Shown piece after piece: positions 4,133 through 38,580 of a stretch of DNA of 64,000 bases. The notes under the pieces were generated by a model. The model was not told the DNA's origin and searched no databases. It saw only the letters and a program-made list of their open reading frames with translations. The translations under genes were made by a program, and so were the position numbers. Source of the DNA: an uncultured Clostridium sp. (GTDB lineage: Bacteria; Bacillota; Clostridia; Lachnospirales; Lachnospiraceae); NCBI GenBank assembly GCA_945915475.1, contig CAMEFI010000012.1, forward strand, positions 1-64,000. The letters are read 5' to 3'. Within the stretch, counting starts at the first letter, position 1. Every line of letters starts with the position of its first letter.

Positions 4133-4145
4133 TCTTCTAAAAATA
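4133..4145. repeat. Left direct repeat (target duplication) of element copy at 4146
   Basis: This stretch ends in TTCTAAAAAAT and the right flank at 4403-4415 carries TTCTAAAAAAAT, the same with one extra A in the run. It is best read as a 12-13 bp target-site duplication. Confidence 0.6.
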
Positions 4146-4402
4146 GGTAATTGCGAAACTCTCATTTTTTGAATATGAGTTGTGCAGATTTAACATATTT
4201 ATAAGCAGGTACTTTGAACCCGCCGGTACTTCCTTGAGCACTTAGTGAATGCAACGCATGAACCCTAGTGCGAAAGAGAGCAGCGCTGTGAGGTTCTTTC
4301 GAACCTAGTACCGTTGCGGGTGAGAGTAGCGAAAGCGTGCCTGCGATAAATTGTTAAATCTGTACAACGAATTCAATAAAGTATATTGTTTCGCAATTGC
4401 CT
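4146..4402 (+). mobile_element. Inverted-repeat element with internal RNA-like hairpin, 257 bp, divergent long form
   Basis: Ends are AGGTAATTGCGAAAC and, inverted, AGGCAATTGCGAAAC. Inside, GTTGTGCAGATTTAACA pairs with TGTTAAATCTGTACAA to form the basal stem. The conserved core follows: GCAGGTACTTTGA, GCCGGTACTT, then AGTACCG, TGAGAGTAGCGAAAGCG and TGCCTG. Relative to the copies at 23440 and 38361, the tip between GGTACT and AGTACC is enlarged by about 45 bases that contain their own small hairpins (ATGC-AAC-GCAT; AGGTTC-TTTC-GAACCT). No protein is encoded. Confidence 0.8.
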
Positions 4403-4415
4403 ATTCTAAAAAAAT
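4403..4415. repeat. Right direct repeat (target duplication) of element copy at 4146
   Basis: ATTCTAAAAAAAT matches the left flank TTCTAAAAAAT apart from one A. It overlaps the U-tract of the terminator of the phosphorothioation operon. Confidence 0.6.
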
Positions 4416-4450
4416 AAGAACCAGAAAGAGATTATCTCTTATCTGATTCT
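4408..4450 (-). terminator. Rho-independent terminator of the phosphorothioation operon
   Basis: On the minus strand, AGAATCAGATAAGAGA folds back on TCTCTTTCTGGTTCT with a short loop and a few mismatches, followed by a run of seven T. It lies about 120 bases after the stop of the last operon gene. The stretch between (4451-4573) holds nothing else recognisable. Confidence 0.65.
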
Positions 4451-4573
4451 CATTATAAAAATTTTGGTGTCCAATAAACATGCCTTGCATATCGAATTTG
4501 TGTTCTTCCAATTGTGAACACGCGCGTTTACAATCTGCCATTACATTCCAAAATCAACAAAATATTTTCTCTA

Positions 4574-5092
4574 TTATTCCTTGACACTCATCAATTCTTC
4601 ATTATTTAGTAACGCGACAATGTTAGCCACCCTTGGTTCCGTATAGACATCCTCATAACTAGTAGGTCTGACAACCAATTCTTCATGAAGGAACTCTATT
4701 CCTGCTCTTGCATAGGAATTGAATATTTCCATATGTTCCTGCATCTTTTCCTGCGTTTCTGGTTTTCTAAAGGCCCGGTCAATTCTCTCCTGTTCTGAAA
4801 GTCCTTCTGATTCATCTAATAATAGCACCATCTTCATAATGGTATTCAACTGCTGTTCAAATCCTGCAATCTGCTCTAATTGAATATTTCTACGTTCTGA
4901 AGAATTATCTAGATCTGCGCGTTCTCCTAGCTTCAACCCTACAACTGCTGCTACCGCATACAGATCAATCAATCTTTTAAAAAAGGAGTTTGCTATCTTG
5001 TTCTTTTCCCACAGCTCATCTACCATTTCCCTGTGTTTTCCATAAATACAGATTGTATCATTAAAATATTTTAACTGTAATTCCCTACCCAT
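4574..5092 (-). CDS. Accessory protein of the phosphorothioation restriction module, family not recognised
   Basis: This 172-residue, mostly helical, acidic soluble protein is the last gene of the operon, three bases after the DndD-like gene and with GGAGG eight bases before its ATG. The segment FFKRLIDLYAVAAVVGLKLGE is the most distinctive part and faintly recalls DndE-type proteins, but it is longer than usual DndE and I would not name it so. By position it would be one member of the three-gene cassette known as sspFGH, which partners sspBCD in many bacteria. That assignment rests on context. Confidence 0.6.
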   Translation of the reverse strand: MGRELQLKYFNDTICIYGKHREMVDELWEKNKIANSFFKRLIDLYAVAAVVGLKLGERADLDNSSERRNIQLEQIAGFEQQLNTIMKMVLLLDESEGLSEQERIDRAFRKPETQEKMQEHMEIFNSYARAGIEFLHEELVVRPTSYEDVYTEPRVANIVALLNNEELMSVKE

Positions 5093-5094
5093 GC

Positions 5095-7119
5095 CTATGC
5101 CTCCTTACAACGTTCTATACTTGAACTATTTGCATCCTGCTCTTTCGTAACCCGGTATGTATACGTTGCGTCTGTATATTGTGATAAATTCGTTGCCTCC
5201 CAATCCTTATCCAGCATAAAAATGATAACCTGTTCAGACACAGTCGGCAATACTTTTGCAATCAGGCCTATATTATCATCACTTAGCTTTGAAAACGGAC
5301 CGTCAAGTACTAATGGAAGATTTAACACATAATTATCTTCAACCTCTCTGGCCTCTTCTTTTTTCTGCTTTGCAAGTTCTAAAATACTGACAATAAACAC
5401 AAAATTTCTTGCAATCTGTTCCCCTTCTGATAAGACCTTTTCTTCGTATCTTGATGTCTGTCCATCCTGACCAATTCTCTTATAATATAGGTGCAATTTG
5501 TAATCTTCCTCTAATGCAGCTTCTTTCTCCTGCTCGTTAAACATTAGAGAAAAGTTACGTTTCATCAATTCATTCAATTCACCCAGTAAAGGACTCTGCC
5601 TTTTCTGATATTCTGCTTCCGCCCGGTCATATAATGCTTCTGCATAAGCAACCATTCTTTGTCTTTTTAGGTTCTGTTCGGTATGCACCCGGGATTCATC
5701 TAGTTTCTGCTCAAGTTTTTTGATTTCTTCCTTATATCCCTCAATATTTATATTACCGATCCGTATCTTTTCCCTTTCCTGTCTTTCAGCCACACGATTA
5801 GATTCCATTTTCCGCCGTTCCTGTTCAAAATTAATGGTACGGTCAATTTTTTTATTGATTCGGTCTATTTCCTCCTGAGAGTCATCCCTTGTCTGTTTCT
5901 CCCCTTCATATAAGTCCGCCTTTTCCAGGATCTCATCATACAATTTCTTACCCTCACCTCGCCATGTCTCCAGCATTCCCTGAAAACTATTTACAAAAGT
6001 AGCAATGGATTCCGGGTAAATCACCTTCTTTAATTCCTCAAGCTTCTTATATTCAGGAGAATCCGGTTCAATAGGATGTCCACACAAACATTGTCCCATT
6101 TCTAACAGATAATCGATCGTAGCCCCTGTAAGATCGGGTATCTGTGATCCTTCTATGGGACTATTTTTCAACATGGTTACAACCTGCTCTAATAAAGATG
6201 CCGAAAAATATTTATATGAGTCACTAAACCCATTGACAATGTCTTTATAATAATTCTCCATCAACCGATTGCTTCTTTCCATATTGTGTTCTTCTCTCTT
6301 CAGATCCTGTAGCATATCTTCTGTTTTTTTATTATTGCGAAGAATCTCTTCTGACTCGGCAACTTTTTTTGCACGATTTTCCGCCAGTTCTTTACTTTCG
6401 CGAATCTTTTCTTCTTCTCTCACGATTTTTGCTTCATAATCATTAATTTTTCTATTCAGTTCCATTTCTGATTCGCTCTCCGCAACAAATGAATTACGTA
6501 TCAGGCGAATAACACTTTTCCCTCTTCTATCCTTCAAGTGATATTTCATGTAAGAAAGTGGGCTGATTCCCATAATGGTATTAATTGCATCCTTAATATC
6601 TTTTGTCTTGTCTGCTTCATTATTCCAACGCTCTCCATCAAACAGGAAGTAACTAGACAGTTCCCGTGGAAACATTAACTGTACTCGGTCCTGTACTTCT
6701 TCCCCCTCCCGATAGTCACTCCATGCACCATCTTCCCGCGTTCTGTATAATAATTTTTCACTAATCTGTTTACTCGTATATCCAAAACCTTTCCGGATAA
6801 ACTCTGCTTTTCGGACAAACTCATGAACAACCTGTCCATCTTCAATCTGTATCTCTACACTTACGAGCTTCCGATCATTAGGTCCCATCTGTGCTAGAAT
6901 TTCATTATTCAACAGGTTTGTATCTTTGCCCTTTGTATATTGTGTGTCAATCACATTCCCATATAATCCCCATCGAAACGCCTGTGCGATTGTGGTTTTT
7001 CCGAAAGTATTATTGCCTAATACAACTGTGACATTCTTCTCCGGATCCGTAGAAAATAAAAGCTTATTCTCCCCTTTGTATCTCATAAAATTTGTCATTT
7101 TTATCTGTCGAAATTTCAT
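5095..7119 (-). CDS. DndD-like SMC-type ATPase (phosphorothioation-associated)
   Basis: This is a 674-residue ABC/SMC-like ATPase. The Walker A GNNTFGKTT sits at 35-43. A DndD-typical SYFLFDGER motif follows at about residue 165, then a long coiled coil interrupted by a zinc-hook-like CLCGHP around residue 340. The C-terminal half carries the signature VLSEGEQIARNF and Walker B LPLVLDGPFSKL. DndD-family ATPases work with sulfur modification of DNA or with the linked restriction step. Here it sits in the downstream, restriction-like half of the operon rather than beside the sulfur-insertion genes, so a role in sensing or cutting unmodified DNA is likelier than sulfur insertion itself. The gene follows the 52-residue ORF by four bases. 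Confidence 0.85.
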   Translation of the reverse strand: MKFRQIKMTNFMRYKGENKLLFSTDPEKNVTVVLGNNTFGKTTIAQAFRWGLYGNVIDTQYTKGKDTNLLNNEILAQMGPNDRKLVSVEIQIEDGQVVHEFVRKAEFIRKGFGYTSKQISEKLLYRTREDGAWSDYREGEEVQDRVQLMFPRELSSYFLFDGERWNNEADKTKDIKDAINTIMGISPLSYMKYHLKDRRGKSVIRLIRNSFVAESESEMELNRKINDYEAKIVREEEKIRESKELAENRAKKVAESEEILRNNKKTEDMLQDLKREEHNMERSNRLMENYYKDIVNGFSDSYKYFSASLLEQVVTMLKNSPIEGSQIPDLTGATIDYLLEMGQCLCGHPIEPDSPEYKKLEELKKVIYPESIATFVNSFQGMLETWRGEGKKLYDEILEKADLYEGEKQTRDDSQEEIDRINKKIDRTINFEQERRKMESNRVAERQEREKIRIGNINIEGYKEEIKKLEQKLDESRVHTEQNLKRQRMVAYAEALYDRAEAEYQKRQSPLLGELNELMKRNFSLMFNEQEKEAALEEDYKLHLYYKRIGQDGQTSRYEEKVLSEGEQIARNFVFIVSILELAKQKKEEAREVEDNYVLNLPLVLDGPFSKLSDDNIGLIAKVLPTVSEQVIIFMLDKDWEATNLSQYTDATYTYRVTKEQDANSSSIERCKEA

Positions 7120-7123
7120 GTAC

Positions 7124-7282
7124 TTATTCCCCCTTCATCTCAAGTTGAATAATCTTAACAATTTGTTTTACCATCTTGTTATCATCCAGTCTTCCGGTTC
7201 TCAAATTTTTCGATTCTTCCATAAATATACGCAGATACATCTTTTCCAACACTTCTTCATTCAAATCATTCTCATTATTCAT
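7124..7282 (-). CDS. Small protein (52 aa) within the phosphorothioation operon
   Basis: This short reading frame lies between the helicase and DndD-like genes and was found by reading the gap. Its ATG at 7282 overlaps the helicase stop by eight bases, with GGAGGA seven bases upstream, and it ends four bases before the DndD-like start. The product is predicted helical and charged, beginning MNNENDLNEEVLEKMYLRIF. Its size and setting fit the group annotated as DNA-modification-system-associated small proteins. I am recalling that family and could not compare sequences. Confidence 0.7.
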   Translation of the reverse strand: MNNENDLNEEVLEKMYLRIFMEESKNLRTGRLDDNKMVKQIVKIIQLEMKGE

Positions 7283-9437
7283 AATCGTCCTCCTCCATTT
7301 GTTTTATGTCTTCCATATCAATAGTTACTCCATAAACATCCTGCAGCTCATCCATAACATTTTCCGCCTCAATACGATTTCTTGCCAGGCGTCCAAATTC
7401 ATAGATTCTTGCAAATTCACCTAAAATAATAGATTTGTCTTCCTCGTAGTCCCCAAATGCGACTTCATCGAACCGTCTCGGCAGTGTCACAAAATCATAT
7501 ATTACCGCCTTCTCTTTTCCCGGTGCCTTTCGAAGTAAACGCCCTCTTCTTTGTATAAATTCTTTTGGATTTCTGCTACTTGCCAGAATAAATGCGGTTC
7601 GAATATCCGGAATGTTCACCCCTTCATCCAAACACCGTATTGCTGTAATAGCCTGATAATTTCCATCCGCAAAACATTCTTTTATCAGATTACGTTCTTT
7701 CAGATTCTCCTCGGAAGTAAACTGATGTGTGGCAATGTCAAATTCCTGATTCATCATATGGGTAATATATTGGATCTGTTTTTCAATCTTTGGGTCTTCT
7801 CTTTGAGACTGTTCTACTTCTATATTGGTTGCACCACAATAGACAAGCATATATTTTTCCTTCCGGTAACCCTCCAATAATCCCCGTAGAACTTCAATCT
7901 TTTCTTCTGCACCTGCCAACAGTCTCGACCGCTTGAACAAAAGCATCTGTCCCATCTCATTTAATACCGTTTTCCCATGCTCTACTTCCACACACTGTTT
8001 AATCTGTCTTGTCAGTTTTCGGTATTCCTTAAACTCGGATTGCGACAGAAATGCATATACCGGATGATAATCATATTCTACAAGATTACCATTACAAATA
8101 GCCTCTTCCAAAGAATACGTAATACATCGTTCCCCGAAATACCGGAATATCCGGTTCGTTCCTTCTATATCCCTATGCCGTTCAATCGTCGCCGACAGTG
8201 CCAGACGATATTTCACCGTTTCATGTAATAAATGAGATATCCGTTCTGCTCCAAAATTATGCGCTTCGTCCACCACCAGAAGAAAATTCATATCCTCATC
8301 CACCGCATGTAACATTGCCTGAATCTCTTTATCACAATAAGTTGCATTCGTGGTAATACAGACAAATGCTTTCCCTTTACTCCGAAAAGTCTTAAAGGCG
8401 TTCATCAACTTCTGTTTCCAGTTTTTTGTTGTAGACTGAGAATGTGCAATAATCGGATTCACTCCCCAGGAAACCACATCTTCTTCCCATTGCCCCACCA
8501 AATGAATATACGGACATACAATAAGTACTGCCAGCTTCCCATTCAGGTTCTTTCCTAACTCAGAAATTGCACCTAATGCTGTAAAGGTCTTACCCGTACC
8601 AGTTGCCATATCAAAAATTCCACGATAATTCTGTTGTTTCCAATTCTTAATCGCTTCGTACTGATACTCTCTTAATGTCACCCCCTCCGGTGGCTTCAGA
8701 AAATCACCCTTTACATATCCTTTGTAACTTCCAAACTGTTTATAATCAATATCATAATTAACCGGACCTCTTTGAAATTCTTTTAATTTTTCAACGATAA
8801 TTTTGGGAAAAGGAATCACTTTTACTTTGTTCGTGGAATCGCTCCATAAATGGTCAAAATTATGTTCTAATGCGTCCACATATTCCCTTAGTCCTTCATA
8901 CCAGTCCTTATACACAAGAATGGATTCAAAATTATTCTTATAAGCATTTTCCGAATCATTCATAGATCCATTAAAACCAACCCGATTACCTTCTGCATCA
9001 TAAAACACTGCAATCTTTTCATGATAAATGTCTATTCCATTATCATCCTCTAAAAAAGCCAGTTTCAATTCCAAGGTTCCATCTGCAATGAGCGTAGCCA
9101 TTAGATTCAGACGCTCTTCTTCAAACTCATTTACCGGCTCCGTAATAGATCGTTCCAGACAACCAGTCATGACTTCTTCTCTCGTCTTATATCCAAAATC
9201 AATTGCCTCCAGATCTTCTTTACTTAATCGTGGTGAGCATATGATCTGAATTTTCCCACCTCGCTTTGCCATACCGGTCAGTCCGGCAGATAATTCAATC
9301 AATGATGTTGTAGAAAAGAAACCAACTGCCCTTTTGTATATTGTTGTCTGATCTAATACCGGCAACAAAAATTGTCTTACATAATCCTGTTCATCGCTCC
9401 TATATTGAATATCAATACTTAATTCACGAAATCCCAT
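7275..9437 (-). CDS. PLD-nuclease / DEAD-DEAH helicase fusion, restriction component
   Basis: This is a 720-residue protein. The N-terminal ~200 residues hold a phospholipase-D-like nuclease motif, His139-x-Lys141 followed by GFNGSMN at 154-160. Then comes an SF2 helicase with Walker A ATGTGKT (278-285), DEAH (390-393), SAT (415-417) and a C-terminal QRRGRLLR motif VI. The same architecture is annotated as the restriction enzyme of phosphorothioation systems. In this operon it would recognise and nick or cut DNA lacking the sulfur mark. The gene starts 13 bases after the cysteine desulfurase stop and overlaps the next small ORF. Identity as one of the SspF/G/H proteins is inferred from context. 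Confidence 0.85.
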   Translation of the reverse strand: MGFRELSIDIQYRSDEQDYVRQFLLPVLDQTTIYKRAVGFFSTTSLIELSAGLTGMAKRGGKIQIICSPRLSKEDLEAIDFGYKTREEVMTGCLERSITEPVNEFEEERLNLMATLIADGTLELKLAFLEDDNGIDIYHEKIAVFYDAEGNRVGFNGSMNDSENAYKNNFESILVYKDWYEGLREYVDALEHNFDHLWSDSTNKVKVIPFPKIIVEKLKEFQRGPVNYDIDYKQFGSYKGYVKGDFLKPPEGVTLREYQYEAIKNWKQQNYRGIFDMATGTGKTFTALGAISELGKNLNGKLAVLIVCPYIHLVGQWEEDVVSWGVNPIIAHSQSTTKNWKQKLMNAFKTFRSKGKAFVCITTNATYCDKEIQAMLHAVDEDMNFLLVVDEAHNFGAERISHLLHETVKYRLALSATIERHRDIEGTNRIFRYFGERCITYSLEEAICNGNLVEYDYHPVYAFLSQSEFKEYRKLTRQIKQCVEVEHGKTVLNEMGQMLLFKRSRLLAGAEEKIEVLRGLLEGYRKEKYMLVYCGATNIEVEQSQREDPKIEKQIQYITHMMNQEFDIATHQFTSEENLKERNLIKECFADGNYQAITAIRCLDEGVNIPDIRTAFILASSRNPKEFIQRRGRLLRKAPGKEKAVIYDFVTLPRRFDEVAFGDYEEDKSIILGEFARIYEFGRLARNRIEAENVMDELQDVYGVTIDMEDIKQMEEDDYE

Positions 9438-9450
9438 ATTCTTGTCTCAC

Positions 9451-10605
9451 CTACTCCTCCGCCAGTTCCTTCACGGCTTCCACAAAAGCATCCACATCCT
9501 CTTTTGTCGTAAAACACCCGATACTTGCCCGCACCACACCGAGACTATCTTTATCCTTTAAGTATTTATGAATCAACGGTGCACAGTGGTAGCCCGTCCG
9601 CACAGCAATTCCATAATCCTGGTCTAACAGCATACCAACTTCATCCGATTTGTAACCATCTATGTTAAATGCCACCATACTAATGTGACGATTTCGGTCA
9701 GATGGCAAATATAGGTGAATATGTGAAATATCCGCCATCTGTTCTACCAAATACCTTGTCAATTCTCTCTCCTGCTGTTCCACCTCCGGATGCTCTGCAA
9801 GATAACACAGACCTGCATTCAGTCCCTCTATTGCAATAATATTGGGGCTTCCAGGCTCTAAGCTTTCCACCCCCTCCGGCATATCCAGATTCAGGGAATC
9901 CGTTCCCGTCCCCCCATACAATACCAGATGCAACGATATACCTGTATTATTCACATATCCGGCAACACCAAATGGTCCGTACATGGTCTTATGTCCTGCA
10001 AATACAATGAAATCCATATCACCTGTTCTCACATCAATTGGCAGCAGTCCGCAGGACTGAGATGCATCTATAATAACCATTGCGCCTGCCTGCTTTGCGA
10101 AAGCGCTCACTTCCTCAATTGGCAGAATATAGCCTGTCACATTACTCACATGACTCATGAAAACATAATCCGGCTTTTTCTTTGCAAAGAGATACGGAAT
10201 ATCTTTTAATTGCAATTCCAGCTTTTCCTCATCAAGCGGGAGCTCTAACACCGTAAATCCATATTGTTTCTGATATGCATAAATGGTTCGTGCCACTGCA
10301 TTATGCTCAAAGGGAGACAGATATACCACATCGGATTCCTTCCACTGTATCCCACCAATAATCAGATTCATGGCAATGGTGGCAGAAGCAGTAAATACCA
10401 CTTTTGCTTCCGGTTTCCCCTGAATGAAATGGCGCACCAGCCCTCTTGTGTCTTCAATCCGGGTAGCAGCACATTTGGCTTCCTCATAACTGCCTCTGCC
10501 TGCATTTACTCCTATGCATCTTGCCGCATCATTCATGGCAATATAGACATCCTCCGGTTTTGGATATGTAGTTGCCGCATTATCAAAATATAATCTTTGT
10601 CCCAT
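9451..10605 (-). CDS. sspA: Cysteine desulfurase of the phosphorothioation system (SspA-like)
   Basis: This 384-residue PLP enzyme takes sulfur from cysteine and hands it to the DNA-modifying sulfurtransferase. It opens with YFDNAATTYPKP; the PLP lysine is Lys206 in FAGHKTMYGP and the persulfide cysteine is Cys341 in RTGYHCAPLIH. This short active-site loop matches the SufS/CsdA-like class. It lies between the SspC-like and helicase genes with gaps of 9 and 13 bases. Many phosphorothioation loci borrow a housekeeping desulfurase; here one is built into the operon, but not in first position as in the classical sspABCD order. The symbol is given by context and fold. Confidence 0.85.
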   Translation of the reverse strand: MGQRLYFDNAATTYPKPEDVYIAMNDAARCIGVNAGRGSYEEAKCAATRIEDTRGLVRHFIQGKPEAKVVFTASATIAMNLIIGGIQWKESDVVYLSPFEHNAVARTIYAYQKQYGFTVLELPLDEEKLELQLKDIPYLFAKKKPDYVFMSHVSNVTGYILPIEEVSAFAKQAGAMVIIDASQSCGLLPIDVRTGDMDFIVFAGHKTMYGPFGVAGYVNNTGISLHLVLYGGTGTDSLNLDMPEGVESLEPGSPNIIAIEGLNAGLCYLAEHPEVEQQERELTRYLVEQMADISHIHLYLPSDRNRHISMVAFNIDGYKSDEVGMLLDQDYGIAVRTGYHCAPLIHKYLKDKDSLGVVRASIGCFTTKEDVDAFVEAVKELAEE

Positions 10606-10614
10606 ACAACACCT

Positions 10615-14268: not shown

Positions 14269-14287
14269 GACTATTCCCCTAACATTT

Positions 14288-15148: not shown

Positions 15149-15180
15149 ATGGGTAATTCCTTTCTCCTATGTTACTTAAT

Positions 15181-20887: not shown

Positions 20888-23365
20888 ATGAAATTTGGAC
20901 ATTTTGATGATGCCAAAAGAGAGTATGTAATCACTACACCTAAGACTCCATATCCATGGATTAACTACTTAGGTACACAGGGATTCTTCTCATTAATTTC
21001 GAACACTGCGGGAGGTTACAGCTTCTATAAAGATGCTCGTCTTCGTAGAATTACCCGTTATCGTTACAACAACGTTCCTATCGATATGGGCGGACGTTAT
21101 TTCTACATTAACGATGAGGGAACCATTTGGAACCCAGGCTGGTCTCCGGTTAAGACCGAACTGGACGCTTATGAGTGTCGTCATGGTATGGGCTACACTA
21201 TCATTACCGGTAAGAAGAACGATTTGAAGGCAGAGGTTACATTCTTTGTTCCTCAGAATTATAACGGAGAGGTTCAGCAGGTTGTACTGACCAACGAAGG
21301 TACTGCACCTAAGTCTTTTTCTCTGTTCTCATTTGCAGAGTGGTGCTTATGGGATGCTCAGGATGACTGCACCAACTTCCAGAGAAACTTCTCAACAGGT
21401 CGTGTTGAGGTAGCCGGTTCTACAATTTACCACAAGACAGAATACAGAGACCGTCGTGATCATTTTGCATTCTACACAGTAAATGATGACATTGACGGAT
21501 ATGATACAGATAGAGATTCCTTTTTCGGTCTTTACAACGGATTCCATAATCCACAGGTTGTAGAAGCAAACAAAGCAAACAACTCCTTTGCAGACGGATG
21601 GTCACCAATCGCTTCTCACTTCAAGAAGATTACTTTAGCTCCAGGAGAGTCTAAGACATTGATATTCATTCTTGGCTACGTTGAGATGCCTGTTGAAGAA
21701 AAGTTCGAAGCAGACGGCAAGACAATCAATAAGACAAAAGCACTTGCCATGATGGAACAGTACAACACACCTGAGAAGGTTGCTGCCGGTCTTGATGAAT
21801 TAAGAGCTACATGGGATAAGCTTCTTGGTGTACTTAATGTTGACACTCCGGACGACAAAGTTAACAGAATGGTTAATATTTGGAATCAGTATCAGTGTAT
21901 GGTAACATTTAACCTTTCACGTTCTGCATCCTACTTCGAGTCAGGTATCGGACGTGGTATGGGATTCCGCGATTCTAACCAGGATGTATTAGGATTTGTT
22001 CATCAGATTCCTGACCGTGCAAGGGAAAGAATTATCGATATCGCCTCTACACAGTTCCCGGATGGTGGATGTTATCATCAGTATCAGCCACTCACAAAGA
22101 AGGGTAACGCAGATATCGGCGGAGACTTCTCAGATGATCCATTATGGTTAATCCTTTCTGTTTCTGCCTACATTAAAGAAACAGGTGATTGGGGAATTCT
22201 TGATGAGATGGTTCCTTATGACAATGATATGTCTAAGGCTCAGCCACTGCTTGACCATTTGAAGGTTTCCTTCTACCACATTGTTAACAATTTAGGACCT
22301 CACGGTCTTCCACTTGCAATGCGTGCTGACTGGAATGACTGTATCAACCTTTCTTGTTTCTCAGATACACCGGGTGAGTCTTTCCAGACTTACACAAACC
22401 CTAAGTTCGCTGCCGAAGGCGGTTACTCAAAGGTTGCTGAGTCCGTTATGGTTGCTACATTATTTACATATTCCGGTCCTAACTACGTTGCAATCTTAAA
22501 GCATTTAGGAAAAGATGATGAAGCTGCTGCTGCTCAGGCTGAGATTGATAAGATGAAAGCAAATATCATGGAACATGCCTGGGATGGTGATTGGTTCTTA
22601 AGAGCATATGATGCAAACGGTGAGAAGATGGGATCTAAGGAATGTGAAGAAGGACAGATTTTCATCGAGCCACAGGGATTTGCCATTATGTCAGACATCG
22701 ATGAAGAAGCAACAAAGAAGACGCTCAAATCTATCGATGAAAGACTGAATACAGAGCATGGTCTTGTACTGAATAATCCTGCATTTACCAAGTACTACGT
22801 TCAATACGGTGAGATTTCTACTTACCCAGGTGGATACAAGGAAAACGCTGGTATCTTTACACATAACAATGCATGGATTATCTGTGCAGCTGCTTATGCC
22901 GGAGAAGGTGACCAGGCATTCAAGTATTACTCAGAAATCGCTCCTGCGTTTACAGAAGAGACTTCAGACCTTCATAAGACAGAACCATATGTATATGGTC
23001 AGATGATTGGTGGTAAGGATGCTGGTTCCGATATCGGACAGACCGGAAAGAACTTTGGTCAGGGTAAGAACTCATGGTTGACTGGTACTGCTGCATGGAA
23101 CATGGTAGCTATTTCCCAGTACATCTTAGGTATTGCTGCCGACTTTGACGGATTAAGAATTGATCCTTCCATTCCATCTGCTTGGGACGGTCTTTCAGCT
23201 AAGAGAGAGTTCCGCGGTGCTACATATGATATCAAGATTTCTAATCCGGATCATATCTGTAAGGGTATCAAGAGCGTAACCGTTGATGGTGCTGCCATTG
23301 AGGGCAATGTTCTCCCAGTATTCGGAGACGGCAACACTCACAGCGTAGAAGTCGTAATGGGCTAA
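20888..23365 (+). CDS. Cellobiose phosphorylase (GH94)
   Basis: This 825-residue enzyme splits cellobiose with phosphate to alpha-glucose 1-phosphate and glucose in the cytoplasm, saving one ATP per disaccharide. The opening [20 protein letters not shown] and [10 protein letters not shown] are typical of cellobiose rather than chitobiose or laminaribiose phosphorylases. The (alpha/alpha)6 barrel carries the general-acid region ADWNDCIN with Asp481 and Asp484; FADGWSPI and [14 protein letters not shown] are also family-typical. Codon use is more biased than in the neighbours, as expected for strong expression. It is transcribed from its own promoter after the mutarotase-like gene and closed by a terminator. 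Confidence 0.92.
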
Positions 23366-23389: not shown

Positions 23390-23426
23390 GGAGCTGTCGC
23401 ACAAATCTGCGGCAGCTCCTTCTTAT
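23390..23426 (+). terminator. Terminator of the cellobiose phosphorylase gene
   Basis: GGAGCTGTCGCA pairs with TGCGGCAGCTCC (one G.T) around CAAATC, followed by TTCTTAT. A copy of the mobile element begins immediately after. Confidence 0.8.
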
Positions 23427-23439
23427 ATTTATACCCTTA
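23427..23439. repeat. Left 13-bp target duplication of element at 23440
   Basis: ATTTATACCCTTA is repeated exactly at 23648-23660 on the other side of the element. Confidence 0.85.
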
Positions 23440-23647
23440 TAGGCAATTGCGAAACTCTTGAAAATGTATATTGAGTTGTGCAGATTTGACAAGTATCCTA
23501 AGCAGGTGCTTTGAGACCGCCGGTACTTAACGAGTGTAAAACACGAGTTTAGTACCGCTGCGAGGCGAGAGCAGCGCAAGCGTGCCTGTGAGGATATTGT
23601 CAAATTGCACAACGTTTATAGAAGAAACAGGCGTTTCGCAAACGCCT
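23440..23647 (+). mobile_element. Inverted-repeat element with internal RNA-like hairpin, 208 bp
   Basis: The terminal repeats are AGGCAATTGCGAAAC and, inverted, AGGCGTTTGCGAAAC. The basal stem pairs TTGTGCAGATTTGACAA with TTGTCAAATTGCACAA, continued by TATCCT/AGGATA and CAGG/CCTG. The apical core holds CGGTACT/AGTACCG, a distal arm GTGT/ACAC flanked by facing GA dinucleotides, and a GC-GCAA-GC tetraloop hairpin before TGCCTG. It is about 95 percent identical to the copy at 38361 by eye and carries no reading frame. Confidence 0.88.
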
Positions 23648-23660
23648 ATTTATACCCTTA
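23648..23660. repeat. Right 13-bp target duplication of element at 23440
   Basis: ATTTATACCCTTA, identical to 23427-23439. Confidence 0.85.
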
Positions 23661-23827
23661 GAGGATTAGGGTGTCAAAAGCCCATTTTAAATATGTGACC
23701 TGACACATCGCATAAAAAGGATTGTATGATTTTTAAAACACATTTACACTTCCTCAATAATGCTACATGGAACGTGTTTCACAATTACCTAATTACCTTG
23801 TGCATAAATGAAGATAGGAGGCTCAAC

Positions 23828-26663: not shown

Positions 26664-26685
26664 TCGTTACTATTTGGGAGGAGTT

Positions 26686-27078: not shown

Positions 27079-27088
27079 TATGCAATCC

Positions 27089-27159: not shown

Positions 27160-27168
27160 TAATATCTT

Positions 27169-27996: not shown

Positions 27997-28049
27997 ATTC
28001 ATCACCTCTACAAGTAGCTTTTCCATAGAAATGATGATTTATTCACTCT

Positions 28050-29522: not shown

Positions 29523-29612
29523 ACTCTTTTGCCTTCTTCGTTCTATTCTCAATGGTAATTGTTTCACTTTTTGTTTTCATTATTCCATAAAATAAAGAGA
29601 CTGTCAATGTGG

Positions 29613-30608
29613 TTATGAAACCTCTTTGTAGCTTACAAGACTCACATTTTGATAGTAATAATCAAGAATTTCTTTCATTGTTTTTCCCTCCTTTGCCATA
29701 CGGTTCGCTCCATACTGCGATACTCCCAAACAATTTCCTGTACCGAGACATACAAAACGCAACCCCTCTTCTCTTTTTTCAACGTAAAAATTCAGAGATG
29801 GCAAATGAAACATCTGCATTGCTTCCTCTCCTGTATAGGAATCTCCATTCACACGTATTTTTTTAACAAATCCATTCTTTGTACTTTCTTCTATCTCCAC
29901 TGCTATTTCCTGTTGTTCTTCCCTTTGTGTATCCGTATCCTTTCCTTCCTTTTCCCCATTTGTGTCTGCCGCTGTATTCCACTGATTCACACATTCGGCC
30001 AACTCTTTTTCCGAATACTCTACCAGATTCATGTAATGTTTGGCTTCCACATCACGACTGCTCTCCACCGATTGCAGATAAGACACCTCTTCCCCTAATA
30101 TCTCTTTTGCACTGGCCGTCTTTCCAATACTAACCTCATGGTAACATGCCATAATCAGATTTCCCTCTTTTGCCAATACTTTTCCCGCTGTATCCATCAC
30201 TGCCCTCTCAAATCGTTTTTCCTGCCTCTCATAATTGCGTTCCCCCCACATTTCTTTTCGTTCCTCTACTGAAATATATGTATACGGGATATCCTCCGCA
30301 TCCTTTGTCCCTCTCTCCTTCATTTCTTTCAACAGGTTGGTACGAATCAAAACCGCCTGCAATTTCAATGTTTCTTCTTCATAATCCGGCGAAATAACTC
30401 CTGCTAAAATGCCCAGTACATATTCCTCCACATCCATAGGCTTATAGATTCCATCGATTTCCACAAGAATTTCCTGACCCATATGGCACGTCTCCATATT
30501 TCGGTCCCCCTGGCCAATTACCAGTTGTGGAACAATGGCACATACAATTACACAGATCAGACATGGTACTCCCACCATTCCCAGTAGCAATAACAACCAT
30601 TTTCGCAT
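29613..30608 (-). CDS. spoIID: Stage II sporulation protein D (SpoIID)
   Basis: This protein of 331 residues has an N-terminal membrane helix (WLLLLLGMVGVPCLICVIVC). SpoIID is a lytic transglycosylase driving engulfment of the forespore. The family pattern is visible in MDVEEYVLGILAGVISPDYEEETLKLQAVLIRT, ACYHEVSIGKTASAKEILGE, YLQSVES and the C-terminal GNCLGVSQYGANRMAKEGKTMKEILDYYY. A charged insert of ~45 residues (NGEKEGKDTDTQREEQQ) interrupts the middle. The ATG at 30608 is used; the GTG at 30626 lies inside the ribosome site, which itself forms the 3' arm of the terminator of the gene upstream. Confidence 0.85.
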   Translation of the reverse strand: MRKWLLLLLGMVGVPCLICVIVCAIVPQLVIGQGDRNMETCHMGQEILVEIDGIYKPMDVEEYVLGILAGVISPDYEEETLKLQAVLIRTNLLKEMKERGTKDAEDIPYTYISVEERKEMWGERNYERQEKRFERAVMDTAGKVLAKEGNLIMACYHEVSIGKTASAKEILGEEVSYLQSVESSRDVEAKHYMNLVEYSEKELAECVNQWNTAADTNGEKEGKDTDTQREEQQEIAVEIEESTKNGFVKKIRVNGDSYTGEEAMQMFHLPSLNFYVEKREEGLRFVCLGTGNCLGVSQYGANRMAKEGKTMKEILDYYYQNVSLVSYKEVS

Positions 30609-30614
30609 AAAAAT

Positions 30615-30646
30615 AACCTCTCCCACTAATCTATGTGGAAGAGGTT
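30615..30646 (-). terminator. glgP terminator whose 3' arm carries the spoIID ribosome site
   Basis: On the minus strand, AACCTCTTCCAC pairs with GTGGGAGAGGTT (one mismatch) around an eight-base loop, followed by ATTTTT and the spoIID ATG. The spoIID Shine-Dalgarno GGGAGAGG is inside the stem. Confidence 0.7.
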
Positions 30647-30675
30647 GTTTCTATGTCATATTTGCAAAAGAATTG

Positions 30676-33147: not shown

Positions 33148-33254
33148 GTCTTCGTTCTCCTCCTTGTAATCCGGACCATTCATATGTCCATTTTATTATA
33201 TTATTCCTCAAACCCAGATTCTATTTTACCAAAAACCACCAGTTTTCACAAGTC

Positions 33255-34814
33255 TTATTTCTTTTTTGAGCGAATTCCTTTTGCATTCACATAATACTTC
33301 CCTATCCATTTGTTACATTGCATCTTACCGGTAGACTTGCTGAAATAACGATACTTACCATTTATCTTCTGCCATCCCTTTTGCATGCCCCCGGTTTCTT
33401 TATCGAAATAATAGTAATATCCGTTTATCTTCTGAAAGCCAAATAACATCTCGTTCGTATCCGGATCAAATCCATATTTCTTGCCCTTGATGCTCACAAC
33501 ACCCGATGCCATATACCCATTCTTATCCACATAGCAGACTACATTACCGATACAGTAACGACCATTTCTCAAATTCACACCATTGGCATCAAAGAGATAT
33601 TTGTGAACGCCATCGGTGTAACTCTCTCCTTTCACAATGGCACCATTTCCTTTTGCCAGATAACGCTTGCCATCTACAGTAAACCAGCCCGTCACCATCT
33701 CACCGGAAGGGTTTAAATAAATGGTGTCATTGCCGACATTCTGAAAACCTGTACACATCTTTCCCGTCATCTCATCAAAATAATACCAGACACCATCTGT
33801 CTTGACAAAACCACCGGCCTTCTTGCCAGACGTTGTACGATAATAAGTTCCATCCGTTTCCACACTGATCTTTCCGGAAACAATCTTCTTATTCAGATTA
33901 TAATAGGATATAATAGACTTCGCATCAGCCTTTCCTACTTTTGTACGTTTTGCTTTTGTACGGAAGAAACGGTTGCAGTCACTGGCACTGGTAATATACC
34001 CATGTTCTATAATAACACTTGGAATCTCCTGCACCACACCTCTTCTGACAATAGAGTAGTAATCTGCCAGTTTGCCATTACTGTACCGGTTACCACTCGC
34101 CGAGCGCCGAAGAAGCAATCCTCTGTTGGCAATACCAATTGCTTTCAAATTATTAAGGGCAAGCCTGCCAAACGCCTGTGTCTCTTTCCGGATATTGTCA
34201 TGATATCCGGATTGATATGCCGTTAACACATTTGCACCGCTGCTTCTTCCTGCATTAATATGCATGCTGACAAGAAAATCGGCATCCAGCTTCTTCGCAT
34301 AATTGTTCCTTGCACTTAAACATCCACCCAGTCCAAGGCTTTCGCAACAACTGTCAGCATCTCTTGTCATATATACCGTAACATCACCATATGTATCTAA
34401 CACCTCCCGGCATGCCTCCGCAATATCCATCACCACAACTTCTTCCCGTAAGCCATTTCCTGCAGCTCCCGAATGTTTCCTGCAATGTCCCGGATCAATC
34501 ACAATTACCCGGGATGTAAGCGGCGACAATCCTGTAGCCTCCACGTCCGCTGCCGGTACAACCGGCTCATACACAGTTGGTGTTTCCACCACTCTCTCCG
34601 TCGTGGTATTGCCTTCCGTTGCAGTGGTTGTCTCCACCGGATTCTCAGCGGAATCCGTATTATCAGAGGTCTCCCTTGTGACAGAAGTCTCCTCCCCCGT
34701 CGTTTCACTATTTCCCGGTAAATTCGTATTGTCCGTTGCCTGCACCGGCATCGCCAGACATCCTGCCATAACTGCAACTAATATCCATGAAGTAAATTTC
34801 TTAATTGTTTTCAA
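33255..34814 (-). CDS. Secreted N-acetylmuramoyl-L-alanine amidase (Amidase_3) with cell-wall-binding repeats
   Basis: This protein of about 519 residues has a signal peptide (KKFTSWILVAVMAGCLAMPVQA), a Thr/Glu-rich linker, a zinc amidase domain of type 3 (VIVIDPGHCRKHSGAAGNGLREE, FLVSMHINAG, SVIIEHGYITSASD) and about seven aromatic repeats of the YYFDEMTGKMCTGF / RYFSKSTGKMQ type that bind wall polymers. The start is likely a TTG at 34814, with GGAG eight bases upstream; the longer TTG frame from 34841 has no ribosome site and would place charged residues before the signal peptide. Role: wall turnover or cell separation. Confidence 0.85.
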   Translation of the reverse strand: MKTIKKFTSWILVAVMAGCLAMPVQATDNTNLPGNSETTGEETSVTRETSDNTDSAENPVETTTATEGNTTTERVVETPTVYEPVVPAADVEATGLSPLTSRVIVIDPGHCRKHSGAAGNGLREEVVVMDIAEACREVLDTYGDVTVYMTRDADSCCESLGLGGCLSARNNYAKKLDADFLVSMHINAGRSSGANVLTAYQSGYHDNIRKETQAFGRLALNNLKAIGIANRGLLLRRSASGNRYSNGKLADYYSIVRRGVVQEIPSVIIEHGYITSASDCNRFFRTKAKRTKVGKADAKSIISYYNLNKKIVSGKISVETDGTYYRTTSGKKAGGFVKTDGVWYYFDEMTGKMCTGFQNVGNDTIYLNPSGEMVTGWFTVDGKRYLAKGNGAIVKGESYTDGVHKYLFDANGVNLRNGRYCIGNVVCYVDKNGYMASGVVSIKGKKYGFDPDTNEMLFGFQKINGYYYYFDKETGGMQKGWQKINGKYRYFSKSTGKMQCNKWIGKYYVNAKGIRSKKK

Positions 34815-34992
34815 TCTTGTTTCTCCTATCTGTATGTTCAAACCTGTATGACTACAGGCTGTGGGTTGATTTTTTCACATTAACCTCTCTATTATACTGA
34901 GTTTTTCCGGCTCATTCAAGACTAACTTTCTTATCTCATAGATGTTATAATGGTAAAAAATATGTTCACAAGTAATTTGGGAGGTTGTCATT

Positions 34993-35385
34993 ATGGAATA
35001 TCTATGGAAAGACAGAAAGCGCACAATATTTGGTTTACCACTCTCTTTCACCAAATATATGGTAACGGAAGAACGCTTATTTATTGAGCAAGGTTTTCTG
35101 AATAAAAAAGAAGACGAGGTCCGCTTATACCGAATCACCGATCTATCCCTGAACCGTTCTTTCGGACAGCGGATATTTGGAGTGGGCACGATTCATTGTT
35201 GTTCTGCCGATAAGACACTGGGAGATTTTGATATTGTAAGCGTCAAACATCCCCGGGATGTCAAAGAGCAATTATCTGAATTGGTAGAAGCACAAAGAGA
35301 TGCCAAACGTGTTACCAGCCGTGAATACATGATGGATCACGATGACGAACACGATATGGACGATGACATTCACGATCTGCAATAA
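34993..35385 (+). CDS. Bacterial PH-domain (DUF304-like) protein
   Basis: This 130-residue protein has a PH-like fold of the YdbS/YdbT kind: FTKYMVTEERLFIEQGFLNKKEDEVRLYRITDLSLNRSFGQRIFGVGTI. There is no membrane segment. The C-terminal tail is a run of Asp and His (MDHDDEHDMDDDIHD) that could bind metal. GGGAGG lies some eight bases before the ATG. Function unknown. Confidence 0.75.
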   Translation: MEYLWKDRKRTIFGLPLSFTKYMVTEERLFIEQGFLNKKEDEVRLYRITDLSLNRSFGQRIFGVGTIHCCSADKTLGDFDIVSVKHPRDVKEQLSELVEAQRDAKRVTSREYMMDHDDEHDMDDDIHDLQ

Positions 35386-35389
35386 CAGA

Positions 35390-35424
35390 TAAAGGGCATA
35401 TCTTATCAGGATATGCCCCTTATG
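35390..35424 (+). terminator. Terminator-like hairpin between converging PH-domain and ptsI genes
   Basis: AAGGGCATATC and GATATGCCCCTT pair around TTATCAG. Only a short T run follows, so it is weak in the plus direction; for ptsI on the minus strand it can act as a stem with an A/T-rich tail. Confidence 0.55.
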
Positions 35425-35428
35425 AATT

Positions 35429-37048
35429 CTACTTATATGATGTCTCGCGGATTACTTTTCTTACCGGAAGTACAAAGGTCGGCGATACAGAAAGCTCATC
35501 AATGCCCATCTTCACAAATCTTTCCGTCAAAGAAGTATCTGCTCCAAGTTCTCCACAGATACCTACCCAGCAGTTCTCCTTATGTCCATTGTCGATTACC
35601 ATCTGAATCATCCGAAGAATTGCCGGATGATGGGAATCATATATCGGATCCAGCTTTGGATTCTGGCGGTCAATGGCAAGGGTATACTGTGTAAGATCAT
35701 TTGTTCCAATACTGAAGAAATCTACTTCTTTTGCCAACAGGTCTGATATCATAACAGCTGCCGGCGTCTCAATCATAATGCCAAGTTCAACTTCACCATA
35801 TTCGATTCCACCCGCATCTAACTCTGCCCGAACCTCTGCACAGATTTTCTTGATATCCTGTACCTCTTTTACAGAAATAATCATGGGAAACATAATGGAA
35901 ATTGTTCCAAATGCTGACGCCCGGTAAAGAGCACGAAGCTGCGTCTTAAAAATGTCAACCCGATCTAAACAGATACGAATTGCGCGATACCCCATTGCCG
36001 GATTCTCCTCATGCTCCATGTTGAAGTAATCCACCTGCTTATCAGCCCCAATGTCCAATGTACGAATAACAACCTTCTTACCAGCCATATTCTGTGCAAC
36101 GGTCTTATAGACCTGAAACTGTTCTTCCTCTGTCGGATAATCTTCTTTCTCTAGGTATAAAAACTCACTTCTGAATAATCCAATTCCCGCTGCATCATTT
36201 GCCAGTACATTTGCCACATCAGCAACGCTTCCGATATTGGCATATAAATGAATATGTCGGCCATCTACAGTCTCATCCGGCTGCCCCTTCAGCTTGGAAA
36301 GCAATTCTCTCGCTTCTTCTTCCTTCTTTTTCTCTTCCAGGTATTTCTCTAATGTCGCAACATCCGGATCCACATAAAATATTCCATTCTTGCCATCCAC
36401 AATTGCCATCTTGCCATTCCATTCTTCTTTGATATCAACACCAATCAATGCCGGAATATTCATGGTTCTTGCCAGGATCGCTGTATGAGAATTCGAAGAT
36501 CCTAATCGGGTTACAAACGCAAGCAGCTTTGTCTTATCCATCTGCACTGTCTCACTTGGTGCCAGATCCTCTGCCACAACGATAACCGGTTCATCTCCCA
36601 AATCACCATCCGTATTTCTTCCTGTAAGTGCACCGATCACACGTTCAGAAATATCCTTCACATCCGCTGCCCTTGCCTTAAAATATTCATCATCCATCTC
36701 CGCAAACATCACAGAAAAATTATCCCCTGTTGTCGCCACAGCAAACTCTGCGTTCACACCATCATTACGAATAATATTATATACTGAATCATTATAATCA
36801 TCATCCTCTAACATCATGGCATGCACTTCAAAAATCATTGCATTCGCTTCTCCGACTTCTGCAACAGCTTTATCATGTAATATCCCAAGCTGTTCAATGG
36901 CTTTTGCCTTTGCCTCTTCATATCTTGCAATCTCTGCTTCCGAATTTTCAACCTTCTCCCGTTTTACCTGCTGCTGATTCTTTGAATAAAATAATACTTT
37001 ACCGATTGCAGTCCCTTTGAAAATAGACTTGCCTTTAAACTGTTCCAT
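35429..37048 (-). CDS. ptsI: PTS enzyme I (phosphoenolpyruvate-protein phosphotransferase)
   Basis: This 539-residue cytosolic enzyme moves phosphate from phosphoenolpyruvate to HPr. The phosphorylated histidine is His188 in LGSSNSHTAILARTM. The C-terminal PEP-binding barrel shows GIGLFRSEFLYLE, MGYRAIRICLDR, EVELGIMIETPAAVMI, FFSIGTNDLTQYTLAIDRQN and the catalytic Cys in WVGICGELGAD. The active-site loop has SSN where GGxT is more usual. It follows ptsH on the same strand after 88 bases that hold a hairpin. Length is slightly short of the usual 570, which is common in Clostridia. Confidence 0.92.
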   Translation of the reverse strand: MEQFKGKSIFKGTAIGKVLFYSKNQQQVKREKVENSEAEIARYEEAKAKAIEQLGILHDKAVAEVGEANAMIFEVHAMMLEDDDYNDSVYNIIRNDGVNAEFAVATTGDNFSVMFAEMDDEYFKARAADVKDISERVIGALTGRNTDGDLGDEPVIVVAEDLAPSETVQMDKTKLLAFVTRLGSSNSHTAILARTMNIPALIGVDIKEEWNGKMAIVDGKNGIFYVDPDVATLEKYLEEKKKEEEARELLSKLKGQPDETVDGRHIHLYANIGSVADVANVLANDAAGIGLFRSEFLYLEKEDYPTEEEQFQVYKTVAQNMAGKKVVIRTLDIGADKQVDYFNMEHEENPAMGYRAIRICLDRVDIFKTQLRALYRASAFGTISIMFPMIISVKEVQDIKKICAEVRAELDAGGIEYGEVELGIMIETPAAVMISDLLAKEVDFFSIGTNDLTQYTLAIDRQNPKLDPIYDSHHPAILRMIQMVIDNGHKENCWVGICGELGADTSLTERFVKMGIDELSVSPTFVLPVRKVIRETSYK

Positions 37049-37071
37049 GTTAACCTCCTATCTGTATAGTA

Positions 37072-37115
37072 GAAAAGGCCATCACAGTACATCTTGTGTA
37101 ATGCGATAGCCTTTC
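37072..37115 (-). terminator. Hairpin between ptsH and ptsI, possible attenuator
   Basis: On the minus strand, GAAAGGCTATC pairs with GATGGCCTTTTC (one G.T) around about twenty bases, followed by only TTTTC. This may lower ptsI relative to ptsH or stabilise the ptsH message. Confidence 0.55.
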
Positions 37116-37136
37116 ATCCACAAAAGGTATCTCTTC

Positions 37137-37394
37137 TTACAGGTTCTCCTTCATAAACTCTTCCATCTTAGCGATTGCAGCGTCCTCATCATCACCTTCC
37201 GCTTTGATCACAACCTCTGCTCCTGTCTTAACACCCAGACTCATCACTGCCATTAGCTTTGTAGCGTCCGCACTCTTACCATTGGCCTCTAATGTAATCT
37301 TAGAAGCGAATTCCTTCGCCTCCTTCACCAACATTCCTGCCGGTCTTGCATGAATTCCAATCTCGTCAGTAATTACATAAGTAAATTCCTTCAT
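37137..37394 (-). CDS. ptsH: HPr phosphocarrier protein lacking the regulatory Ser46
   Basis: This 85-residue protein carries phosphate from enzyme I to the sugar transporters on His15 (GIHARPAGM). Aligned by eye to Bacillus HPr, the usual serine 46 segment (KSIMGVMSLG) reads TKLMAVMSLG, so residue 46 is lysine with a threonine before it. That would remove or change the HPr-kinase site used for CcpA-type catabolite control. The ATG at 37394 follows GAGAGGAC; the frame to 37433 is not used. The gene is first of the ptsH-ptsI pair. Confidence 0.88.
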   Translation of the reverse strand: MKEFTYVITDEIGIHARPAGMLVKEAKEFASKITLEANGKSADATKLMAVMSLGVKTGAEVVIKAEGDDEDAAIAKMEEFMKENL

Positions 37395-37509
37395 TGATAA
37401 ATGTCCTCTCTTTCTCAGGAATCTCATCACCATATGTGAGAACGATTACCCATATTTCATATCACATATTTGTGAAGATTCCCATATTTTTTTGTTTGTT
37501 TATGAGATG

Positions 37510-37538
37510 ATTATAACAAATGCATAATACAAAGTCAA
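37510..37538 (-). promoter_or_regulatory. Promoter of ptsH-ptsI
   Basis: On the minus strand, TTGACT (37538-37533), 17-base spacer, TATAAT (37515-37510). This gives a leader of roughly 110 bases before ptsH. Confidence 0.65.
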
Positions 37539-37643
37539 TTATTTCCTTGACATTTTCGTCATTTTCTTCAAAAAATTTCTTACGTGTCATCCATCTTCAT
37601 CTATCTGCACATAATACGGTATCGTTTTCATATACTTTTTCTT

Positions 37644-38285
37644 TCATTTCCTATTATTTCCAAATATCTGATGAATTCCATATGAATACACACTCTCTCC
37701 CACTGCACTAGTATTACTGATTTTCTCTAAATTATTCCTCACATCTTCCTGTTTCCGAAATGTGCAGGATACATTACCGCACAGAGAACAATGCTCACAT
37801 CCACTCTGTTTCTTGTCATCCACATACTGTGCTGTAAATACTACACTCTTTGCAGGATGCAACATTCCATTCTTCCACTCTATGTACTCCGGCTGAAGTT
37901 TCATTAGTCCATCCTGTATTCCATCCTTTTCCGGAAATCTGTAACGACCTAACCACATACCCATCTTCTCATACACATGTACATTTACCCGCTCATATGC
38001 CTTTGACAGCAATTCCATCCCCACACATTCCACACAATATGCCAGCAACAGATTTTCCGCCACAACATCTGATAACTTATCGTATTTTTCGCCAAGCGTA
38101 ACTGCACAGACCGCACTTTTTTCCTCATATCCAATTATCATCTCCACCCGGATCACCTCGCACACAAACCTCACACAGGATATAATCATTTCCATATCCT
38201 TTTTTTCGAAATGATATCGTTCCATAAACTCCGGCATTTTAATCTCTTTATATTCGATTACACACGAAAATTGTTCCGTTACCAT
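37644..38285 (-). CDS. Possible B12-dependent methionine synthase activation-domain-like protein
   Basis: This is a 213-residue soluble protein. The stretch AVCAVTLGEKYDKLSDVVAE, then LLLAYCVECVGMELLSKAYE, GRYRFPEKDGI and MLHPAKSVVF follows the pattern I associate with the stand-alone MetH reactivation-domain proteins of Lachnospiraceae. A C-terminal cysteine set, CEHCSLCGNVSC followed by TFRK, fits the same group. The match is from memory and weak, so the name is tentative. The gene lies upstream of ptsH on the same strand but ptsH has its own promoter. Confidence 0.5.
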   Translation of the reverse strand: MVTEQFSCVIEYKEIKMPEFMERYHFEKKDMEMIISCVRFVCEVIRVEMIIGYEEKSAVCAVTLGEKYDKLSDVVAENLLLAYCVECVGMELLSKAYERVNVHVYEKMGMWLGRYRFPEKDGIQDGLMKLQPEYIEWKNGMLHPAKSVVFTAQYVDDKKQSGCEHCSLCGNVSCTFRKQEDVRNNLEKISNTSAVGESVYSYGIHQIFGNNRK

Positions 38286-38347
38286 ATTTATCCTTAACCT
38301 TTTCTAATAATTTTTAATATTTCAACACATACTTTCCATATTGTAAC

Positions 38348-38360
38348 ACAAACTTTTTCT
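38348..38360. repeat. Left 13-bp target duplication of element at 38361
   Basis: ACAAACTTTTTCT, followed by an ambiguous A, is repeated exactly at 38568-38580. Confidence 0.87.
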
Positions 38361-38567
38361 AGCTAATTGCGAAACTCTTAAAAATGTATATTGAGTTGTG
38401 CAGATTTGACAAGTATCCTAAGCAGGTGCTTTGAGACCGCCGGTACTTAACGAGTGTGAAACACGAGTTTAGTACCGCTGCGAGGCGAGAGCAGCGCACG
38501 CGTGCCAGCGAGGATATTGTCAAATTGCACAACATTTATAGAAGAAGCAGGAGTTTCGCAAACGCCT
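38361..38567 (+). mobile_element. Inverted-repeat element with internal RNA-like hairpin, 207 bp
   Basis: The ends are AGCTAATTGCGAAAC and, inverted, AGGCGTTTGCGAAAC. Basal stem and core are the same as in the copy at 23440, with about ten single-base differences. Several fall in loops (TGTAAAACA to TGTGAAACA); one changes the GCAA tetraloop to GCAC. It is inserted 29 bases before the start codon of the DUF421 gene and creates an apparent but false N-terminal extension of that reading frame. Confidence 0.9.
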
Positions 38568-38580
38568 ACAAACTTTTTCT
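38568..38580. repeat. Right 13-bp target duplication of element at 38361
   Basis: ACAAACTTTTTCT, identical to 38348-38360. The AGGAGG of the DUF421 gene follows at 38584. Confidence 0.87.

Follow-up and report, generated by a model that had tools for sequence, protein, structure and literature searches.

Short hairpin elements of Lachnospiraceae share their ends with an IS1182-like insertion sequence and mostly lie beside Shine-Dalgarno-like purine runs

Correia and ERIC are short, intergenic and strongly folded bacterial MITEs, and some known MITEs have been proposed to move in trans through an insertion sequence whose ends resemble theirs. Other mobile elements keep to a fixed and safe address that leaves reading frames unbroken, as Tn7 does at glmS and yeast Ty3 does upstream of tRNA genes, and IS110/IS1111 elements carry a guide RNA, a structured non-coding part within a mobile element. 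The BOX, RUP and SPRITE repeats of pneumococcus, which the elements described here resemble in being short, intergenic and strongly folded, are reported to be over-represented between convergent genes, together with pneumococcal insertion sequences (PMC3049150). Most of the elements found here instead precede start codons by a fixed distance, and their covarying core crosses genera.

Unlike that of Tn7 or Ty3, the address would here be the ribosome-binding sequence of many genes rather than one site or one class of gene; unlike in IS110/IS1111, no guide region has been shown, the enzyme is of the DDE type, and the structured core is in the passenger and not in the insertion sequence. In the open-access literature, covered in part through abstracts, we found no description of insertion sequences with a Shine-Dalgarno or ribosome-binding-site address, and nothing on such elements for IS1182, Lachnospiraceae or Butyrivibrio, both of which are weak negatives. 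What is chiefly new in the family is its landing address together with its conserved core, and not the length of its target duplication.

Elements in the window and across the genome

The window, the whole 64,000-nucleotide stretch analysed here, was thought from its letters to hold three full copies and one cut copy of a mobile element; all four are present, with edges within one or two bases of those first given (Table 1). Most ends, once the outermost T and A are included, have the form TAGG...CCTA. With up to three mismatches the 15-base end occurs 11 times in the window, against 2.1 expected, and none of 100 shuffles reaches 11. The flanking sequences are direct repeats, as claimed, and their length, put at 13 bp in the original prediction, is slightly under that, mostly 11-12 bp: the duplication at 23440 is an exact 12 bp (13 if one edge is shifted by a base), that at 38360 is 11 bp (13 with the edges shifted), and that at 4144 is 9 bp. 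A further copy of the core, at 51700-51798, had been missed; it lies between genes resembling a citrate transporter and a cytidylate kinase, and no orthologous context for it was found among the loci examined. Adjoining the 23440 copy is the remnant of a second element (23720-23791): about 60 of its bases are 90-92% identical to an arm of the 524/577-bp class, and after them comes a diverged end, AGGTAATTGTGAAAC.

Table 1 Features of the window in order of position
Feature	Coordinates	Strand	Remarks
Cut copy, 208-bp type, at contig start; one terminal end at 47-61	1..62	-	Window begins at contig base 1
Shine-Dalgarno-like AAAGGTG, offset 14 from the 4144 element edge	4123..4129	-	
Left target duplication TTCTAAAAA, 4144 element	4135..4143	.	
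260-bp non-autonomous element, one long hairpin	4144..4403	+	259 bases folded: -111.7 kcal/mol, z -10.6
Structured core, 4144 element	4200..4349	+	Covariance model R1, 72.1 bits
Right target duplication TTCTAAAAA, 4144 element	4404..4412	.	
GAAGGAG, 1 mismatch to AAAGGAG, offset 17 from the 23440 element	23416..23422	-	
Left target duplication TTTATACCCTTA, 23440 element	23428..23439	.	
209-bp element, main type, hairpin	23440..23648	+	208 bases folded: -91.8 kcal/mol, z -9.2
Structured core, 23440 element	23497..23594	+	Covariance model, 98.9 bits
Right target duplication TTTATACCCTTA, 23440 element	23649..23660	.	
Left target duplication CAAACTTTTTC, 38360 element	38349..38359	.	
209-bp element, main type	38360..38568	+	
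Structured core, 38360 element	38417..38514	+	Covariance model, 87.9 bits
Right target duplication CAAACTTTTTC, 38360 element	38569..38579	.	
Shine-Dalgarno AGGAGG of the downstream gene (ATG at 38597)	38584..38589	+	
Core copy without TAGG...CCTA ends, between AT-rich complementary arms, intergenic	51700..51798	-	Covariance model

A search of the whole genome with the 15-base end gives 290 matches, compared with 88 for the reversed control, and a covariance model of the core finds 49 copies, far above the three first noted. A 208-base query yields at least 35 matches in the same genome that cover at least 196 of the 208 bases at 89-100% identity, plus shorter ones; this is a lower bound, as 40 of the 88 candidates were scored. 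After removal of two spurious end pairings (L001, 352 bp; L112, 609 bp), 43 paired elements of 53-577 bp were counted in the window's genome, 33 of them at 205-210 bp and five at 524-577 bp, and the 524- and 577-bp classes have different arms around the same tip core. When TAGG and CCTA are taken as the edges, 29 of the 43 are flanked by an exact duplication 9-13 bp long, with a mode of 12, five more have one with a single mismatch and nine have none; these elements were admitted in part for having a duplication, and the counts exclude elements with one recognisable end. A fairer set is formed by 33 elements of two relatives (G009 and G014), picked on perfect ends alone: they are all the perfect-end pairs under 300 bp in the scan list of the relatives, and 32 are new, the other (L373) being already in the relatives' set as L064. 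In this second set an exact duplication of at least 9 bp flanks 14 of 33, or 24 of 33 if one mismatch is allowed. A duplication of this length is unusual for bacteria, as had been noted, yet it falls within the range of some known families, IS4 and IS231 among them.

The elements have the features of MITEs: they are short, lack a transposase gene, have inverted ends and a near-fixed duplication, and share those ends with an autonomous insertion sequence. The element is matched in 22 of 25 relatives of the same genus; outside it, 1 of 10 genomes in the rest of the family and 0 of 24 in the rest of the order have a match. Plasmid and phage records hold no match to the element, viral contigs, searched for an autonomous copy, have 15 stretches with one exact 16-base match each, and a search with the core pattern gives none. 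One stretch of the window's own assembly (L304, G000:C23) looks identical, over the part compared, to L233 of the MAG RUG10817 and carries the element subtype of RUG10817; the region could be contamination of the assembly, or could come from a close relative.

Presence at a single gene varies between species. The gene downstream of the 38360 copy has orthologues in eight relatives of the same genus, and six of these, including the closest (G015, 90% amino acid identity), have no core and no element end near the start in the 400 bp upstream. In G006 (L340, G006:C84) the orthologue is preceded by an independent element that has different arms and a duplication of its own, ATAATAGATTAT; in G001 (L341, G001:C59) there is a lone end, carrying one mismatch and lacking the core, that lies 30 bp before the start. 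All three carriers, the window included, have the inner end 29-30 bp before the start codon, and the gene seems to have been struck more than once at the same distance. A clean single copy of the 12-mer at an empty site was not recoverable from these relatives, where the intergenic DNA is too diverged.

A partner insertion sequence in sister species

The elements had been taken to be non-autonomous and mobilised in trans, and an insertion sequence with matching ends and a like duplication is indeed found in sister species; it is 1.75 kb long and encodes one IS1182-like transposase. When six relatives were scanned for perfect ends, G002 proved to have only two, which face each other across 1.75 kb and enclose a single ORF of 491 amino acids. 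These two ends have different sequences, TAGGCGTTTGCGAAACGCC and TAGGTAATTGCGAAACTC. The 208-bp element has a pair of ends that differ from each other just as those of the insertion sequence do, and both are matched by insertion sequences of G002, G008 and relatives. The 491-residue protein contains DUF772 (PF05598; 51.4 bits, cut-off 23.1), the N-terminal domain of the IS1182 family, while its matches to DDE domains lie below cut-off (PF13751, 22.3 compared with 25.1 bits; PF01609, 14.7 compared with 23). The best NCBIfam model is transpos_IS1182, at 77.5 bits against a curated equivalog cut-off of 270, and we therefore name the transposase IS1182-like only.

The insertion sequence thus resembles the IS1182 family, to which IS1272 belongs, in its DUF772 domain, its weak DDE matches, its best model and its single ORF between inverted ends, and differs from it in that low score and in an address beside a purine run. 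IS1272 is reported to replace inverted repeats (a target stem-loop) without a duplication (PMC5678879), in contrast to the 11-12 bp duplications seen here at elements and insertion sequences alike; the comparison is with this one member and not with the whole family.

At 1e-5 the partner transposase is matched in 12 of 60 genomes, at full length in G002 and G008, and has no match in the assembly of the window's genome; at 1e-30 it is matched in 37 of 397 genomes of the family, representing 35 of 334 genera. Of 33 insertion-sequence loci examined, 16 could be scored, as the locus encloses the two ends and these have no more than two mismatches; the other 17 had no end pair, more than two mismatches or an end at a contig edge (L308). 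An exact duplication of 10-12 bp flanks six of the 16, and three more have one with a single mismatch. The partner insertion sequence supports mobilisation in trans, and we infer from the shared ends that the IS1182-like transposase moves the elements; as it is absent from the window's own assembly, the moving enzyme there has been lost, was left unassembled or is another one.

The own genome was also searched for other candidates. A DDE_Tnp_1-type transposase gave one weak match, an ORF on contig C43 that is 23% identical to the partner transposase and is not framed by the ends of the family, and the long-spaced end pairs listed for 20 stretches proved to be degenerate short elements, single ends and chance matches in coding sequence. 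Relatives of the transposase, at 78% and 67% identity, are found on plasmids of Butyrivibrio proteoclasticus B316 and Roseburia sp. 831b. On pCY360 of the former (L334), two tandem copies of the insertion sequence share one 14-bp spacer, CATTTATTTATAAA, which recurs after the second copy.

The landing address

The address is a purine run like AAAGGAG, usually a Shine-Dalgarno sequence, that starts about 16 bp from one edge of the element. With at most one mismatch, AAAGGAG is found 8-24 bp from an edge in 40 of the 43 paired elements of the window's genome, with a mode of 15-17 bp, against 10.2% of 49,319 random intergenic points; the exact heptamer is found in 24 of 43 compared with 0.8%. A called start codon lies 25-40 bp from one edge in 35 of 43, compared with 4.6% of the control points, and in 26 of those 35 the distance is 28-33 bp. 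Binomial probabilities come to 1e-39 (start codon), 2e-36 (motif) and 2e-39 (exact motif). The best-matching side was picked for each element and the control was handled likewise; reading frames in the flanks were required to have a Shine-Dalgarno-like sequence, and starts and intergenic points come from a simple script rather than from annotation. In this set the flank that bears the motif is 84-98% purine at positions 16-23 from the edge.

The same spacing recurs elsewhere. The motif, with at most one mismatch, accompanies 13 of 14 elements of relatives and 12 of the 16 scorable insertion sequences, the misses being L307, L311 (which adjoins another such end), L315 and L270; in the second set it is found at 25 of 33 elements, and a start codon at 26 of 33. 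Three of 43, eight of 33 and four of 16 sites therefore miss the motif at this threshold, and several of them keep runs like GAGGAG or GGAGG. In the window, the 38360 copy is one of the three, its AGGAGG having two mismatches to AAAGGAG, and the 4144 element lies 27 bp from the start codon of a minus-strand ORF. The identity of the elements and their address are well supported.

Motif and start codon are hard to separate: over 20 elements the spread of the distance from the edge is nearly equal for the two (standard deviation 1.60 for the motif and 1.70 for the start codon), so that spacing alone cannot tell them apart. Among the 40 motif-bearing elements of the window's genome, 36 have a possible start triplet within the next 16 bases; the other four are L038, L029, L112 and L027, of which L027 has a start further on. 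In two insertion sequences, L313 and L324, AAAGGAG is exact and the 44 bases compared contain no start downstream of it. The 23440 copy, counted among the 35 elements near a start codon, is probably a false start call, a doubt that arises from the position of its GAAGGAG within the stem of a terminator-like hairpin (judged by eye) 3' of an ORF ending at 23365, where the run is probably not a gene start. Motif sites without a start codon favour reading of the DNA, on few cases.

The hairpin core and a proposed mechanism

The elements carry a covarying hairpin core of about 90 nt, which is found in 42 of 294 genomes of the order and in 21 of 132 genera; all 42 genomes belong to the same family. 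In 53 diverse cores a nested structure pairs 93.4% of cells, and 13 of its 26 pairs show changes in both partners. In 500 shuffles none of the five measures used is ever reached, and sliding the partner by 1-3 columns lowers pairing to 24-38%. The 3' half is partly fixed by the search pattern, which inflates its invariance, while the 5' half is free. A pseudoknot was considered and dropped, as the covarying bases proved after alignment to be those of the nested helix. On the modelled strand there are 81 G-U cells compared with 25 A-C cells. The excess points to a putative RNA of that strand, though a single column supplies 42 of the 81 and another supplies 14 of the 25. Rfam has no family at the core at gathering threshold in the window and 17 loci, and two elements searched at E up to 10 return one chance-level microRNA match each. 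The core is a candidate new structured RNA family, and is absent from all insertion-sequence loci examined.

Among the matches listed, the core occurs in Eisenbergiella tayi and Oribacterium sinus, as well as in many MAGs that carry the label Lachnospiraceae; for a few MAGs the label is Bacteroidales, Muribaculaceae or Mogibacterium, and these may be binning errors. For 70 cores in named genomes (37 of 107 having been left out for short flanks or weak arms), a start codon lies within 60 bp of 6 of 7 cores with the family ends and 31 of 63 without them, counts that have no control, and no convincing recurrent protein gene stands beside the core. Among the 35 elements of the window's genome near a start codon, 11 have the same orientation as the gene, 15 the opposite one and 9 could not be oriented.

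On this statistical evidence from sequence, we consider it likely that the elements are MITEs moved in trans by an IS1182-like DDE-type transposase that cuts with a stagger of about 12 bp and whose targets are picked by a purine run. The enzyme would recognise TAGGCGTTTGCGAAACGCC at one end and TAGG(T/C)AATTGCGAAACTC at the other, would make its staggered cut in the target, and would be directed by AAAGGAG or near forms about 16 bp from the element edge, which is 4-5 bp beyond the duplication. Since the purine run is mostly a Shine-Dalgarno sequence, most insertions would fall about 30 bp before a start codon, a placement that would leave both the ribosome-binding site and the reading frame intact. 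The ends, the duplications, the partner insertion sequence and the spacing to purine runs and start codons are observed; that the transposase or a helper reads the run in DNA is what we infer from them. This mechanism leaves unaccounted the hairpin core, present in the elements and absent from the insertion sequence. A more tentative extension, to which we give rather less than even weight, is that the enzyme reads the Shine-Dalgarno sequence as its address while the structured RNA of its passengers aids transposition or keeps the downstream gene expressed.

Other accounts fit less well. Random insertion, with selection keeping only copies just upstream of ribosome-binding sites, would leave none of the 43 paired elements inside a called reading frame, as is the case, yet it is set against an enrichment near starts of 35 of 43 elements over 4.6% of random points, and it predicts neither the 15-17 bp from edge to purine run nor the presence of the run at sites that have no start; we regard it as quite improbable. 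An address read from a gene in the course of translation or transcription (the ribosome, the nascent mRNA or an open promoter complex), instead of from AAAGGAG in DNA, is less easily dismissed and still unlikely. It gains from the near-constant distance to the start codon and from TATAAT-like sequences seen by eye in several duplications, and loses by the few insertions at a motif with no start codon following (L038, L029 and L112 in the own genome; L313 and L324 among insertion sequences) and by the window copy at 23440, which uses a run in a terminator-like stem. That the repeats are old shared sequence and not mobile, or that some enzyme with no relation to the IS1182-like one moves them, is hardly credible: the lack of a transposase copy in the window's genome speaks for it, and target duplications, near-identical copies at unrelated places, species-specific presence at one orthologous gene and the two ends common to elements and insertion sequence speak against it.

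For the core there is a different reading, namely that it has no role as RNA and acts as folded single-stranded DNA or is a by-product of palindromic structure. Gene orientation is too little biased to suggest a leader-RNA function, the core is missing from the insertion sequences, and the 14 C-A mismatches that one column holds would become G-U if read from the opposite strand; opposed to these are the covariation, with its shuffle control and its collapse on sliding, the G-U excess on the modelled strand (about half of it from one column) and the recurrence of the same core between unlike arms in 21 genera. We hold this account to be a serious possibility, though one that falls short of an even chance.

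If transposition by the IS1182-like enzyme does read its address from DNA, a group of insertion sequences would fit into dense genomes by targeting a motif at the safe edge of many genes, and many genes in these Lachnospiraceae would have hairpins inserted into their leaders, with consequences for expression that could be tested. The insertion sequence has hosts in culture.

The core also occurs in other settings. At L243, L152, L180 and L206 it sits, as judged by eye, at the tip of terminator-like arms whose base has an A-run or T-run. Inverted pairs of cores, spaced about 0.2-2.5 kb, occur in several genera; in L286-L292, from other genera of Lachnospiraceae, two inverted cores are separated by about 0.2-0.6 kb in six loci and by 2.5 kb in L291, sometimes within longer inverted repeats, and these pairs are possibly other mobile units that use the same core.
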